A stretch of DNA of 5,134 nucleotides, taken from contig JAJRTK010000219.1 in NCBI GenBank assembly GCA_024278345.1, forward strand, positions 1 to 5,134. The letters run 5' to 3'. The notes under the pieces are model-generated. The model saw nothing but the letters and a program-made list of their open reading frames with translations. It was not told the origin of the DNA and did no database searches. Source of the stretch: a bacterium. Lineage in GTDB: Bacteria; CSSED10-310; JAJRTK01. Both the position numbers and the translations under genes were made by a program. Shown one piece after another: positions 95 to 4,845 of the stretch; the stretch's first letter is position 1; every line of letters begins with the position of its first letter.

Positions 95-2098
95 ATGGGC
101 AAAATGCGCATCGCCTTTCCTTACTTGTTGTTCGCTGCCATGGCCGCGGGAGTCGTCTGGTCCAACGTCGGACCAGCTCCAGTGAGCGATGGAGCCCGGG
201 TTGCCTCTGAACGGGCGGAGGGGTCAGAGACGCAGCGCCACTGGATCGATCCCGTTTGCAGGATGGAAGTGAACCCTTCCTGGGGTTTCGTTCACGAGCT
301 CGACGGTCGGCGCCGTTATTTTTGTTCCAAGCGTTGCCTGGCGGATTTTGCCGCCGATCCCGGGAAAGTTCTGGGTCGCCGTTGCATGGTTTGCCGAAAG
401 GGGCTTTCGGGAGACGTTCCTTGGGTCGCAACCTACATGGACCGGAAGTTCCAGTTTTGTTCCGCCGCCCATCGCGCACGATTCAAGGTCGATCCGGCGG
501 GCTTTTTCATGCATCGGATGTGGGGAATCCCCGATTGGCTCTACTACCTCTCCATCGCCATTGTCTTGCTTGTATCATTCGTGATGTTCGAGGGTCGAGA
601 GCTCTTTTCGCGCCGGCGGAGCGCATCTCCGGGCGGCATTGTTTCGGCGGTGGCCCTCTTGGATCCGCCTCCGGTACGGGTGGACATCTTTCGATGGGGG
701 TTGGTGCGCCGGCTTCTTCTGTCGCGAGTCTTCCGCTTTAGCCTTCAATTCGTGGTGGGTTCCTTCTTTTTTTTGATCCTGGCAGCCGGGCTGTTTGGGA
801 ACCAAAACCCGGCCCTGAACGTCGCACCGCTCTTGACCTGGACGGTTTGGTGGGGCGGGTTGGTGGTTCTCATCATGTTTGCGGGGAAGGCCTGGTGCTA
901 CGTCTGTCCGTGGGACGCCGTGGCCGGGTGGTTGGAGAAATGGAGCCTTTGGAGGAAAACCAAGGGTACGGGGCTGGAGACGAAGTGGCCGCGGTTGATT
1001 CGAAACGTGGCGCTGGCGACCATTTTGTTCGTGGGTCTGACCTGGATAGAGCTGGGGTTTGGCGTGACGATGAAGCCAGAGGTAACGGCATGGCTTGGGA
1101 TCGGGATGCTTGTGATGGCGGTGGTTTCGGCTTTTCTTTTCCACCGAAAGAGCTTTTGCCGGTACGGATGCCTGGTGGGCCGCGTGAGTGGGCTCTATGC
1201 GATGTTTTCCGGGATCGAGGTTCGCCCGCGCCACAGCGACACCTGCCAGTCTTGCCGAACGAAGGAGTGCGTTCGCGGAAGTGAGACGGCTTATGGCTGC
1301 CCGACCTTCCTTTACCCGGGCGGGCTCCAGACGAACACTTACTGCATCCAGTGCGCCGAGTGTCTTCAGGCTTGTCCTCACGATAATCTGGCCGTGAACC
1401 TCCGACCGTGGGGCGCGGATCTGGCCGTTGAAGGGCGGCCTCGGACGGATGAGGCCTACCTGGCCCTGCTGATGTTGTCCATAACAGGGTTTCACGGTCT
1501 CACCATGACGCCGGTTTGGCAGGAGTTTCTAAAGGTTTTGGAGTCAGGGTTTTCCATGGGTTCCATGGGGAGTTTCAGCTTGGGAATGGCGGTGCTCATG
1601 CTTGCGCCGATCCTTCTCTATGCAGCCCTCGTCTGGATTTCCTACCGAATCGCCGGGGGGCGGGGGTGCCAAGCCAAGCGGAGGAACGGGAAGATCGGCT
1701 ACCACAACTACTTCGTTCGGTATGCTTATTGTCTGTTGCCCATCGCCCTCTTCTACCATTTGGCACACAATCTCGAGCACCTTCTGATGGAGGGCCCGAA
1801 AGTCGTGGCTCTCTTGAGCGATCCCTTCGGTTGGGGTTGGAACTTGCTGGGAACAGCTTCGTGGAGAATTCCACCCCTCGTTTCTCTGGACGTCTTATGG
1901 GTGCTACAGGTCATTTTGGTGGGGGTTGGCCATGTCTACAGTTTATGGGCAGCCCGAAACATCGCTCGCAGGTTGTTCCCCGACAAGGTGATGGCTTCCA
2001 GGAGTCAGTGGCCGATGCTCATCGGAATGATCGCCTTCAGTGTTTTGAGCTTGTGGCTCCTGAAACAGCCCATGGAGATGCGTTCTTCGGTGATGTAG
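95..2098 (+). CDS. Membrane polyferredoxin (NapH/NosR-type) with two N-terminal YHS metal-binding modules
   Basis: A 667-residue inner-membrane protein that probably moves electrons across or along the membrane. Residues 5-22 form an uncleaved anchor. Two YHS/TRASH-like modules follow: 52-93 (DPVCRM, then FCSKRC; Cys55, 77, 81) and 97-138 (Cys97, 100, 122 and His126). A helix at about 149-165 ends in RRR, so the YHS pair should be periplasmic. Further helices lie near 215-235, 246-265, 303-322, 329-349, 453-475, 494-517, 539-560, 599-620 and 640-657, with basic loops consistently on the cytoplasmic side. Fe-S motifs are Cys268-x2-Cys271-Pro, Cys355-x3-Cys359, and a ferredoxin insert with Cys384, 387, 392, 402 and Cys417, 420, 423, 427. 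This is the NapH/NosR/CcoG superfamily, which hands electrons to periplasmic reductases or reduces metals. The C-terminal helices carry His467, 555, 558, 562 and 613. NosR itself is unlikely because no FMN domain is present. The family call is firm; the substrate is unknown. A nitrous-oxide-reductase-type context is a guess from recalled relatives. Confidence 0.88.
   Translation: MGKMRIAFPYLLFAAMAAGVVWSNVGPAPVSDGARVASERAEGSETQRHWIDPVCRMEVNPSWGFVHELDGRRRYFCSKRCLADFAADPGKVLGRRCMVCRKGLSGDVPWVATYMDRKFQFCSAAHRARFKVDPAGFFMHRMWGIPDWLYYLSIAIVLLVSFVMFEGRELFSRRRSASPGGIVSAVALLDPPPVRVDIFRWGLVRRLLLSRVFRFSLQFVVGSFFFLILAAGLFGNQNPALNVAPLLTWTVWWGGLVVLIMFAGKAWCYVCPWDAVAGWLEKWSLWRKTKGTGLETKWPRLIRNVALATILFVGLTWIELGFGVTMKPEVTAWLGIGMLVMAVVSAFLFHRKSFCRYGCLVGRVSGLYAMFSGIEVRPRHSDTCQSCRTKECVRGSETAYGCPTFLYPGGLQTNTYCIQCAECLQACPHDNLAVNLRPWGADLAVEGRPRTDEAYLALLMLSITGFHGLTMTPVWQEFLKVLESGFSMGSMGSFSLGMAVLMLAPILLYAALVWISYRIAGGRGCQAKRRNGKIGYHNYFVRYAYCLLPIALFYHLAHNLEHLLMEGPKVVALLSDPFGWGWNLLGTASWRIPPLVSLDVLWVLQVILVGVGHVYSLWAARNIARRLFPDKVMASRSQWPMLIGMIAFSVLSLWLLKQPMEMRSSVM
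1552..1569 (+). repeat. Perfect 9-bp tandem duplication inside the polyferredoxin gene
   Basis: TTCCATGGG occurs twice back to back and keeps the frame, encoding the SMGSMG stretch in the periplasmic loop before the helix at residue 494. It is probably a neutral in-frame duplication. Confidence 0.7.
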
Positions 2099-2217: not shown

Positions 2218-4188
2218 ATGAAGATCGAAAGTGATAGGGTGCGTGTTCTTTCAGTCTTGGGCATTGTGGCGAATCTGTTGGCGGTGCCCTTGACGGCGAA
2301 TGGGGCCACGTTCAACGTGGGCACGGGAGCGGAACTTTCCAGTGCCCTAGCCAGTGCGGCAAGTAACGTAGAGGACGATACCATCGTGCTTGCGGCCGGG
2401 ACTTACGCTATTTCCGCGACTTTGCTCTATAATTCGAGCGAAGCGAGAGCCTTGGCGCTCAACGGAGCGGGAATGGGCGTCACCGTTTTGGACGGGGGAA
2501 GCGTGCGGCAGATCATGAGTTTGGTGGCCACTGCCGCGGGGGCCTCGATTGCGGTTTCGAACATGACCTTCCAAAATGGTTCGACCTCTGGCTCTGGCGG
2601 GGCATTGGCCGCGGAAACGACATCGGGGACATTGACCATCGACAGATGCGAGATCACCGACAGCAAGGCAACCGGTGGGGCTTCGGTGGGGGGCGCGGCA
2701 AACTTGTTTTCAGATACCGGAACGATCCTTGTCACGGGAAGTTTCTTTCGCCGGAATAGTTCGGCGGGGAATGTTGGCGGTCTCTACGCAGGGACGACCA
2801 CCGGCGCAATCCAGTTTGTGGATTCGACATTTGAAGACAACTCGGTGGTGAACTCCGGCGGCAGCATCTATTTTGGTGATGGCGGTGGCGCCATGGCCTA
2901 CAATGACGGCGCTGGCGCTCAGATCCTGGTCCAGGGATGCACTTTTCGCAACAACACCGCCGCCGGCGGCGACAACCCGGACGGCGGAGGGTTGATGACC
3001 TACCAGCTCGGCTCTGGTGTCTTGGCGACATTGGAGAACAATCTGTTCACTGGGAACCAGGCCGGTCTTGGCGGTGGCGGTTGCATCATCCGGATGAATG
3101 TCAGTGGGACAGTGGAGTTTCATGGCAATCAGTTTCAGGGGAACTCCACGACTCTCGGGACCGGCGGCGGTGCTCTGATTTACGTGAACAATGCCACGGT
3201 TCGGCACACGGGAAACAGCTACAGCTCCAACCAGGCGGGAACCGATGGCGCTGGTTTGTGGCTGGAGCAGTTCCAGGGGCTCGCTGAAGTCAAGTCCAAC
3301 ACATTTCGGGGCAACATGGCCGGGAACAACGGTGGTGGAGCAGGAATCGCCGTCGAAACGGCGACGGTCACCTGGACCCGAAACCTCGTATCAGGAAACA
3401 GCGCCACGGGCGTTGGCGGGGGTCTTTCCTACGCCACGAACAGCGGTTCGCTCCAGGCGTCGAACAACACCTATTACGGGAATTCAGCTTCCGGAGATGG
3501 AGGCGGTCTCTATCTCTACTTCGATCAGACCACTGCCCAGTTTGACATAGCTAACGACATCCTATGGAATGATTCTCCCAATGAGCTTGCCTATTCCTCG
3601 GGCACGGGAAGCGGGAGCGTGAGTCTGCGTTATTGTGATGCCAGTGGGAGTTCTGAGGAGACCTGGTTCGGCACCGGTTGTCTGAGCGCCGATCCGCTTT
3701 TTGCCGATCCGGGGAACGGTGATCTCCGCCTGACCTGGGCGAGCTTTCCCACAACGGACACGACGAAATCACCTGCGATTGACACGGGAGATCCGATTTC
3801 TTCTTTGGATCCTGATGGAACCCGGGCTGACATGGGAGCGATCCCTTTCAACCAGAACCCCTCTTCAACACCGACACCTTCTCCGACGCCGCCGTCCCAG
3901 GCCACATCGACCCCGACATGGACAAACACGCCACCTCCCACAGCCACTCCAACGCCCCGGTCCTGCGCCATTTGCGTGGACACGGACTACGACGGAGTGC
4001 CGGACTGTTGGGATCTCTGCCCCGATACGGGATCCAGGCGGTATGTTAACACCAACGGCTGTACTGGCTCTGGAGTCGCCAGCCATTGGGAACGGTGGGG
4101 ACTTCTCTTGTTCCTCCTGCTGGTTTTTGCGGCCCACGTCCGAAAACGGAAGCAAATGTCCAAAAAACCCAGGCACCAGACTCCGTGA
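2218..4188 (+). CDS. Secreted, surface-anchored right-handed beta-helix protein with Pmp-type repeats
   Basis: A 656-residue exported protein with no recognised enzymatic residues. Residues 1-29 are a signal peptide (basic start, hydrophobic core, likely cleavage after ANG). Residues 30 to about 450 form a parallel beta-helix of roughly 11 rungs. Copies of [ST]-[FY]-x-x-N followed by a Gly-rich GGG-[AL] turn start near 117, 145, 175, 204, 242, 276, 305, 334, 362, 390 and 418, mostly 28-30 residues apart. This is the FxxN/GGA pattern of polymorphic outer-membrane protein repeats. Residues about 490-544 (ADPLFADPGNGDLRLT, SPAIDTGD, DPDGTRADMGAIPF) match the ending called choice-of-anchor Q. A Pro/Thr/Ser linker (547-581) leads to a five-Cys module with DTDYDGVPD and then a membrane tail (about 627-641) followed by RKRK. 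It is probably exposed at the surface, in adhesion, matrix or envelope structure. NosD is unlikely because of the tail and the Gly-rich rungs. Its role beside redox genes is unknown. Confidence 0.85.
   Translation: MKIESDRVRVLSVLGIVANLLAVPLTANGATFNVGTGAELSSALASAASNVEDDTIVLAAGTYAISATLLYNSSEARALALNGAGMGVTVLDGGSVRQIMSLVATAAGASIAVSNMTFQNGSTSGSGGALAAETTSGTLTIDRCEITDSKATGGASVGGAANLFSDTGTILVTGSFFRRNSSAGNVGGLYAGTTTGAIQFVDSTFEDNSVVNSGGSIYFGDGGGAMAYNDGAGAQILVQGCTFRNNTAAGGDNPDGGGLMTYQLGSGVLATLENNLFTGNQAGLGGGGCIIRMNVSGTVEFHGNQFQGNSTTLGTGGGALIYVNNATVRHTGNSYSSNQAGTDGAGLWLEQFQGLAEVKSNTFRGNMAGNNGGGAGIAVETATVTWTRNLVSGNSATGVGGGLSYATNSGSLQASNNTYYGNSASGDGGGLYLYFDQTTAQFDIANDILWNDSPNELAYSSGTGSGSVSLRYCDASGSSEETWFGTGCLSADPLFADPGNGDLRLTWASFPTTDTTKSPAIDTGDPISSLDPDGTRADMGAIPFNQNPSSTPTPSPTPPSQATSTPTWTNTPPPTATPTPRSCAICVDTDYDGVPDCWDLCPDTGSRRYVNTNGCTGSGVASHWERWGLLLFLLLVFAAHVRKRKQMSKKPRHQTP
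3856..3960 (+). repeat. Low-complexity Pro/Thr linker coding region
   Basis: Residues 547-581 of the beta-helix protein are almost entirely Pro, Thr and Ser (STPTPSPTPPS, TPPPTATPTP), encoded by ACN/CCN-rich DNA. Such linkers separate a surface domain from its anchor and are prone to length variation. Confidence 0.8.
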
Positions 4189-4266: not shown

Positions 4267-4845
4267 ATGACGAACCTATCAAGGCGCGAGTTCTTCACGG
4301 GGTGGCGCGAGCTTTTATCGTCGCGACTGGAAAAAGTTCGGCAATCTAGCGTGCCAGGGGAGAAACGCCAGCCTCAGCCCTTTCTTCGGCCGCCAGGCGC
4401 CCTGCCGGGAAAAAAATTCTTGGAGCTTTGTCAGCAGTGCCCCGACTGCCTGGTGGCCTGCCCTAAGGAAGCGATCCGCTTTCTTGGGCACGAATTTGGG
4501 AAACTGGCCGGCACGCCAGCGGTGATCCCACGGGATTCTCCATGTTGGCTCTGCAAAGATCTTCCCTGTATCGCGGCCTGCACCACTGGGGCGCTTCAGC
4601 CCGTCGAAGTGGCGGAGGTAAAAATGGGCAAAGCGCGGATCAACTATGGCGCGTGCTACGTTTCCACGGGGCAACCTTGCGACTACTGCGTGATGCGCTG
4701 CCCCCTCAAACCCAGTGCTGTTCGATGGGGGAATCAGAACTTGCCAGAGATCGATGTCGATGCCTGTACAGGTTGCGGGGTTTGTGACTATCTCTGTCCC
4801 GCCAATGCCATTGAGATCGCCCCGGCTTCCTGGTTCGATTGGTAG
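4267..4845 (+). CDS. NapF-like cytoplasmic ferredoxin with four [4Fe-4S] cysteine sets
   Basis: A 192-residue soluble iron-sulfur protein. It opens with LSRREFF (residues 4-10) and has an RPP at 41-43, both typical of ferredoxin-type NapF. The Arg pair resembles a Tat motif, but no hydrophobic stretch follows, so it should stay in the cytoplasm. Sixteen Cys form four sets: 55, 58, 61, 65 (followed by Pro); 93, 96, 101, 105; 130, 138, 141, 145 (followed by Pro); and 167, 170, 173, 177 (followed by Pro). The wide spacing of the third set (C-x7-C) also occurs in NapF and related NapG/MauM proteins. NapF is known to interact with the cytoplasmic precursor of the NapA nitrate reductase and help its maturation. 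Here there is no NapA in view, and the likely partner is the polyferredoxin at 95-2098. NapG is less likely because there is no signal peptide. The multi-cluster ferredoxin call is firm; the NapF assignment is probable. Confidence 0.85.
   Translation: MTNLSRREFFTGWRELLSSRLEKVRQSSVPGEKRQPQPFLRPPGALPGKKFLELCQQCPDCLVACPKEAIRFLGHEFGKLAGTPAVIPRDSPCWLCKDLPCIAACTTGALQPVEVAEVKMGKARINYGACYVSTGQPCDYCVMRCPLKPSAVRWGNQNLPEIDVDACTGCGVCDYLCPANAIEIAPASWFDW

Follow-up and report, generated by a model that had tools for sequence, protein, structure and literature searches.

A membrane polyferredoxin with two N-terminal YHS modules from a family linked to a NapA-like molybdoenzyme operon

Results

The locus and its features

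The window analyzed here is a complete contig of 5134 bp (G000:C143), whose features are collected in Table 1. It encodes a protein, P0001, in which a signal anchor is followed in a single chain by a pair of YHS/TRASH modules, a membrane helix and a polyferredoxin core of the NapH/NosR type. This layout, which had been proposed from the sequence in the original prediction, was confirmed by Pfam, by profile comparison and by an AlphaFold2 model, and is not a chance pattern. The region that had been singled out, positions 248-508, corresponds to codons 52-138 of ORF 95-2098 and spans both YHS modules. Downstream, at positions 2218-4188, lies an unrelated ORF, whose product is a secreted protein of the right-handed beta-helix type with a Pro/Thr linker and, at its C terminus, a hydrophobic segment followed by a basic tail; it parts the YHS gene from its NapG neighbor here, which is not so in the relatives examined. 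Assignment of this ORF as NosD was rejected, as there was no NosD match and its position is not conserved.

Table 1. Coordinates of the features identified in the 5134 bp window.
Feature	Position	Strand	Basis
ORF of the YHS-YHS polyferredoxin P0001, 667 aa	95..2098	+	230 relatives by tblastn; alignment of 30 YHS-bearing homologues
N-terminal signal anchor/TM1, residues 2-24	98..166	+	AlphaFold2 helix 2-24 and hydropathy
YHS module 1, residues 49-93, ligand set D52/C55/C77/C81	239..373	+	Pfam YHS above cut-off; ligands in 30/30 homologues
YHS-like module 2, residues 94-139, ligand set C97/C100/C122/H126	374..511	+	Profile-profile match; Pfam YHS in 8/12 homologous modules; secondary structure
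TM2, residues 147-176, periplasm to cytoplasm	533..622	+	AlphaFold2 helices and topology prediction
NapH/NosR-superfamily polyferredoxin core, residues 195-445	677..1429	+	Fer4_5/Fer4 and NapH models below cut-offs; Cys conserved
C-terminal membrane half, residues 451-667; H467, M471, H555/H558/H562, H613, tail PM660xM662R	1445..2095	+	Conservation; predicted topology
NapG/MauM-type periplasmic ferredoxin, third NapG of the operon	4267..4845	+	NCBIfam NapG E 1.3e-29, below curated cut-off

The YHS modules and their ligands

Both YHS folds proved to be real, the first by Pfam and the second by profile comparison. Module 1 (residues 51-91) matches Pfam YHS (PF04945; E 1.6e-8, 34.8 bits with a cut-off of 30.3), and this is the only occurrence of the domain in the whole genome. 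Module 2 of P0001 falls under the Pfam YHS cut-off and gave no match for this copy; the profile of its homologues matches that of module 1 (hhalign 97.9%, E 3.3e-13), and Pfam calls YHS in eight of 12 module-2 sequences of relatives (best 7.4e-7). In the AlphaFold2 model (67 sequences in the alignment, mean pLDDT 90.7, pTM 0.91) the two modules show the same order of strand, strand, helix and helix, at residues 66-69, 72-75, 79-87 and 89-93 in module 1 and at residues 110-114, 117-121, 124-132 and 134-138 in module 2.

The ligand set of module 1 (D52-x2-C55-x21-C77-x3-C81) is invariant in all 30 homologues, and that of module 2 (C97-x2-C100-x21-C122-x3-H126) has identical spacing; the putative ligand types are Asp-Cys3 and Cys3-His, respectively. 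Of the 24 homologues having the second module, none lacks C97 or C100, and 23 have H126; the sole deviant is the protein of locus L007 (loci of relatives carry L numbers), in which C122 is replaced by Asn and H126 by Cys. A third module, N-terminal and of the CxxC...CxxxC type, is seen in many relatives. A YHS domain with an Asp and three Cys has been reported to respond to Cu2+, and this residue set was proposed to bind copper (PMC4626032).

Core cysteines and membrane topology

The core of P0001 holds 12 Cys (C268xxC271P, C355xxxC359, C384, C387, C392, C402 and C417xxC420xxC423xxxC427), of which 11 are invariant across 67 homologues, while C387 is replaced by His in Chloroflexi. Matches of the core to family models are weak: Fer4_5 of Pfam scores 19 bits against a cut-off of 22, the Fer4 match is also weak, and the best NCBIfam match, NapH/MauN, reaches 39.5 bits against a cut-off of 213. 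Searching the PDB by sequence returned PsaC-like ferredoxin matches only, and whole-model Foldseek and VIA-align searches gave no useful match, a result that does not show a new fold.

Topology was derived from the model helices and from Lys/Arg counts of the loops and is a prediction only. It comprises 11 transmembrane helices with the N terminus inside and the C-terminal tail outside; each of the short outer loops has 0 to 2 Lys/Arg, and each inner loop of at least 16 residues has 4 to 12. The YHS modules and the Fe-S Cys motifs are thereby predicted to lie on opposite sides of the membrane, the former outside and the latter inside, which supports the earlier proposal that the Cys modules face the periplasm rather than the cytoplasm. 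The membrane half also carries a conserved set of His and Met: M471, H555, H558 and H562 occur in 54 of 54 non-Chloroflexi homologues, and M660 and M662 of the tail motif PMxMR in 53 of 54. All are predicted to be on the periplasmic side, where a role in binding copper or heme is conceivable, as is one in quinone chemistry.

The operon of the NapA-like enzyme

Gene neighborhoods were compared in 80 of the 230 tblastn relatives, many of them from uncultured Planctomycetota. In those with YHS, the gene is preceded by genes for a multiheme cytochrome c, a NapA-like molybdoenzyme, NapG-type ferredoxins and a polyferredoxin resembling NapH, which has an HHxxGxPHYxYxxxYPQ domain; NapG-type ferredoxins number two or three in the operon as a whole. 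Of the 25 YHS-bearing relatives whose flanking DNA is long enough, 24 have this operon next to the YHS gene, and only L040 has the YHS form without it. The NapA-like gene itself is found in 23 of the 24 YHS loci for which 5.7 kb or more of upstream sequence is available, and also at L018, judged by a copy at the end of a contig whose length agrees with that of the L018 contig (50,974 bp); copies at least 70% identical are present in the genomes of the fragmentary loci L003, L004, L011, L023 and L024. Directly 3' of the YHS gene, a NapG-sized gene of the same cluster is found at L007, L010-L012, L015-L018, L029, L031 and L037. Genes for molybdenum cofactor recur among the 77 neighboring proteins scanned (MoaA-type, 4; MoCF_biosynth, 2), as do hemerythrins (7). 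In searches of the open-access literature we found neither a YHS polyferredoxin nor this operon described.

In the genome of P0001 itself the operon is split over two contigs, and the break falls exactly between the polyferredoxin and the YHS gene. One end of contig C457 holds the NapA-like gene (its product is 78% identical to the L002 copy), two NapG genes, the gene of the second polyferredoxin and a cytochrome c with ten CXXCH motifs, together with a cytochrome b (ExtP/ExtQ-like), a component seen in this genome, and a ferredoxin-linked NAD(P) oxidoreductase. This second polyferredoxin ends 25 bp from the contig end. C457 and C143 do not overlap; we infer that they are adjacent because of the synteny with relatives.

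The NapA-like enzyme is Tat-exported, aligns best to solved periplasmic nitrate reductases and conserves the Mo-ligand Cys and the Met that follows it. Since the L002 copy scores only 306 bits with the curated NapA cut-off at 904, the enzyme is better described as a NapA/NasA relative than as an assigned NapA, and nitrate as its substrate would be a guess from sequence. The NapG-like and NapA-like neighbors both fall below the curated equivalog cut-offs.

Several other features of these neighborhoods should be noted. The second polyferredoxin (positions 26-1570 of L106 on C457, minus strand) combines an Ig-like domain with the motif HHxxGxPHYxYxxxYPQ, which is conserved; at L022 the HHxxG domain stands alone as a protein, cleavage of which would leave an N-terminal His, as in the Cu-binding His-brace proteins. 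The model of the neighbor P0006 is poor (pLDDT 67.9), and the resemblance of its Ig-like C-terminal domain to CrdA (E 5e-4), and also to complement C5 domains, is a lead only. A long molybdopterin-like and Fe-S protein follows the operon or the core gene at L031, L033, L035, L037, L039, L054 and L059, an arrangement that recalls Alternative Complex III; the protein of L031 is QrcB/QrcC-like.

Distribution of YHS and NosL on the core family

In the tree of the core the YHS-bearing proteins fall into one clade of 34 rows (SH-aLRT 99), and the presence of YHS requires no more than two changes. The modules number none, one, two or three. They were lost in the subclade of L030, L032, L034 and L036, of which the first three keep the NapA-like gene; YHS is therefore not essential to the operon. 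It is conceivable that the modules are structural, zinc-holding and treble-clef-like, and serve without redox role as docking platforms for the NapG-type ferredoxins or the molybdoenzyme: the full Cys3-His site of module 2 would suit this, and the variation from one to three modules together with the loss in one subclade suggests an adaptor role. We consider this quite unlikely given the strong invariance of the ligands and the retention in module 1 of the Asp and three Cys set linked to copper sensing (PMC4626032).

Links to copper were found among relatives without YHS. A NosL domain occupies the position of the YHS modules in archaeal L045 (PF05573, E 1.2e-9) and, by motif, in L044, both from archaeal MAGs. 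Genes for SCO1, PCuAC, YtkA-like and cupredoxin-like proteins lie beside L048, and the neighbors of L074 include cupredoxins, a YHS Cu-ATPase and a PCYCGC protein. In L040, L044 and L048 nosZ is present in the genome but on other contigs; the same search gave no match in the genome of P0001 (88% complete), in which NosL was not found either, and NosZ was not detected in any of the 19 searched genomes that have the NapA-like operon. Among the 25 families listed for the 77 neighboring proteins, none related to copper is recurrent.

These data bear on a function of the CcoG kind, in which P0001 would be a periplasmic reductase or chaperone of copper or another metal whose Fe-S core reduces Cu(II) held by YHS and the His/Met residues and hands Cu(I) to a cuproprotein. 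The NosL fusions, the copper genes beside L048 and L074 and the conserved His/Met set of the core all speak for such a role, as does the precedent of CcoG, which reduces Cu(II) and has two Fe-S clusters (PMC7558416). Against it stand the failure to find a recurrent copper family in the neighborhoods listed, NosZ in the 19 operon genomes searched or NosL in the genome of P0001, and the use of molybdenum by the linked enzyme; it is rather unlikely, but a serious rival of the reading preferred below. The suggestion that the protein couples electron transfer to copper reduction or delivery was not supported for the YHS clade, where neither recurrent copper genes nor NosZ were seen, but may still apply in view of the NosL domains and copper neighbors of the relatives without YHS and of the His/Met set. 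The associated expectation that homologues would be linked to a metalloenzyme was strongly borne out, in that the NapA-like molybdoenzyme accompanies 24 of 25 loci, with the difference that in this clade the enzyme is neither a copper enzyme nor NosZ.

A further role, in which the modules sense periplasmic metal and gate the flow of electrons to the enzyme, has a parallel in an adenylyl cyclase gated with Cu2+ by its YHS domain (PMC4626032). It is highly improbable here, no metal-homeostasis family being recurrent among the same 25 families.

Three further observations concern other relatives. L056 has a CXXCH (cytochrome c-like) segment fused to the core where YHS would be; L084 and L086 have large ORFs in which, judged by eye, a related polyferredoxin core is fused to an AAA+ region that is sigma54-activator-like; and positions 3628-5079 of L040 encode a membrane protein that by eye resembles a subunit of heme-copper oxidase or NO-reductase and has no NCBIfam match.

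Discussion

The reading that we prefer, with confidence evenly balanced, is that P0001 is the membrane electron-transfer subunit of a NapA-like respiratory system, with a metal held by YHS at the outer face. Electrons from quinol or from the cytoplasmic side would pass through the core of P0001 to the periplasmic face, where a transition metal bound by YHS and the His/Met residues of the core may form a contact or relay site from which the NapG ferredoxins and the NapA-like enzyme would be supplied. Counted in favor are the link to the NapA-like operon, the recurrent molybdenum cofactor genes, the invariant YHS ligands and the single YHS clade; counted against are the loss of YHS in the subclade of L030, L032, L034 and L036, the YHS form of L040 without operon and the split of the operon over two contigs in the genome of P0001. 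The Fe-S motifs, with their predicted position on the cytoplasmic side, do not by themselves account for a path of electrons to the periplasm, a difficulty shared with NapH. YHS sites usually hold a sensing or structural metal, and we know of no redox-active one.

Because related cores carry from one to three YHS modules, NosL or neither, the periplasmic metal module of these polyferredoxins is taken to be exchangeable. A wider proposal, which we put forward tentatively, is that the members of the polyferredoxin family share one chassis for delivering electrons, onto which different periplasmic metal modules are plugged (YHS, NosL, cytochrome c or a separate cupredoxin), and that each member delivers electrons to the metal held by its module; the YHS version would then reduce or load a metal for, or relay electrons to, the new NapA-like molybdoenzyme.

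P0001 is a new arrangement of known parts and not a new kind of system. Its interest lies in the unsettled question of how periplasmic enzymes receive electrons from polyferredoxins of the NapH and NosR type, which have their Fe-S clusters at the cytoplasmic face; for this question a family that keeps its core and swaps its periplasmic module (YHS, NosL or none) is a natural experiment. It also points to an uncharacterized and largely undescribed NapA-like respiratory cluster in many Planctomycetota and some other phyla.

Among known systems NapH is the best curated family match; like P0001 it is a membrane polyferredoxin encoded together with ferredoxins of the NapG type and an enzyme of the NapA kind, and NapGH has been proposed to act as a quinol dehydrogenase that feeds NapA (PMC12780646). 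P0001 differs in its low NapH score, in its added periplasmic YHS modules, in having 11 predicted transmembrane helices rather than four, and in its Cys motifs: the two CX3CP motifs of NapH (as defined in PMC5928378) are absent, and all 30 aligned YHS-bearing homologues have a CX2CP, as WCxxCP, and a CX3C lacking the Pro, as FCRxxxC. Canonical NapH was rejected because the paired CX3CP is missing.

NosR (anatomy in PMC7660919) and RdhC (PceC) have a comparable layout of signal anchor, periplasmic cofactor module, transmembrane helix and NapH-type membrane core, which in NosR is a polyferredoxin, and the FMN domain of RdhC, at the position of the YHS modules, has been proposed to pass electrons on (PMC5928378). 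P0001 lacks the FMN motif [ST]G[AS]T (defined in the same work), which led us to reject NosR, and has no NosR model match; its family is linked to a molybdoenzyme, and no NosZ was detected in the operon genomes searched. The view that YHS replaces the flavin domain of NosR is hence correct as to position, but nothing in the tree points to an FMN-bearing ancestor, and by HMM the core is nearer to NapH than to NosR. A transcription regulator, the old annotation of NosR, was likewise rejected, no DNA-binding domain having been found.

CcoG resembles P0001 as a membrane Fe-S protein with copper chemistry, and its C-terminal Ig-like domain has a counterpart in the neighbor polyferredoxin; P0001 differs in its YHS modules, and no cbb3 link was seen. 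NosL, which takes the same N-terminal position in the two archaeal relatives, belongs to a domain family other than YHS. The Cu2+-responsive YHS domain (PMC4626032) has the same Asp and three Cys at nearly the same spacing, and differs in that the modules of P0001 stand in tandem, are predicted to be periplasmic and are carried by a polyferredoxin.
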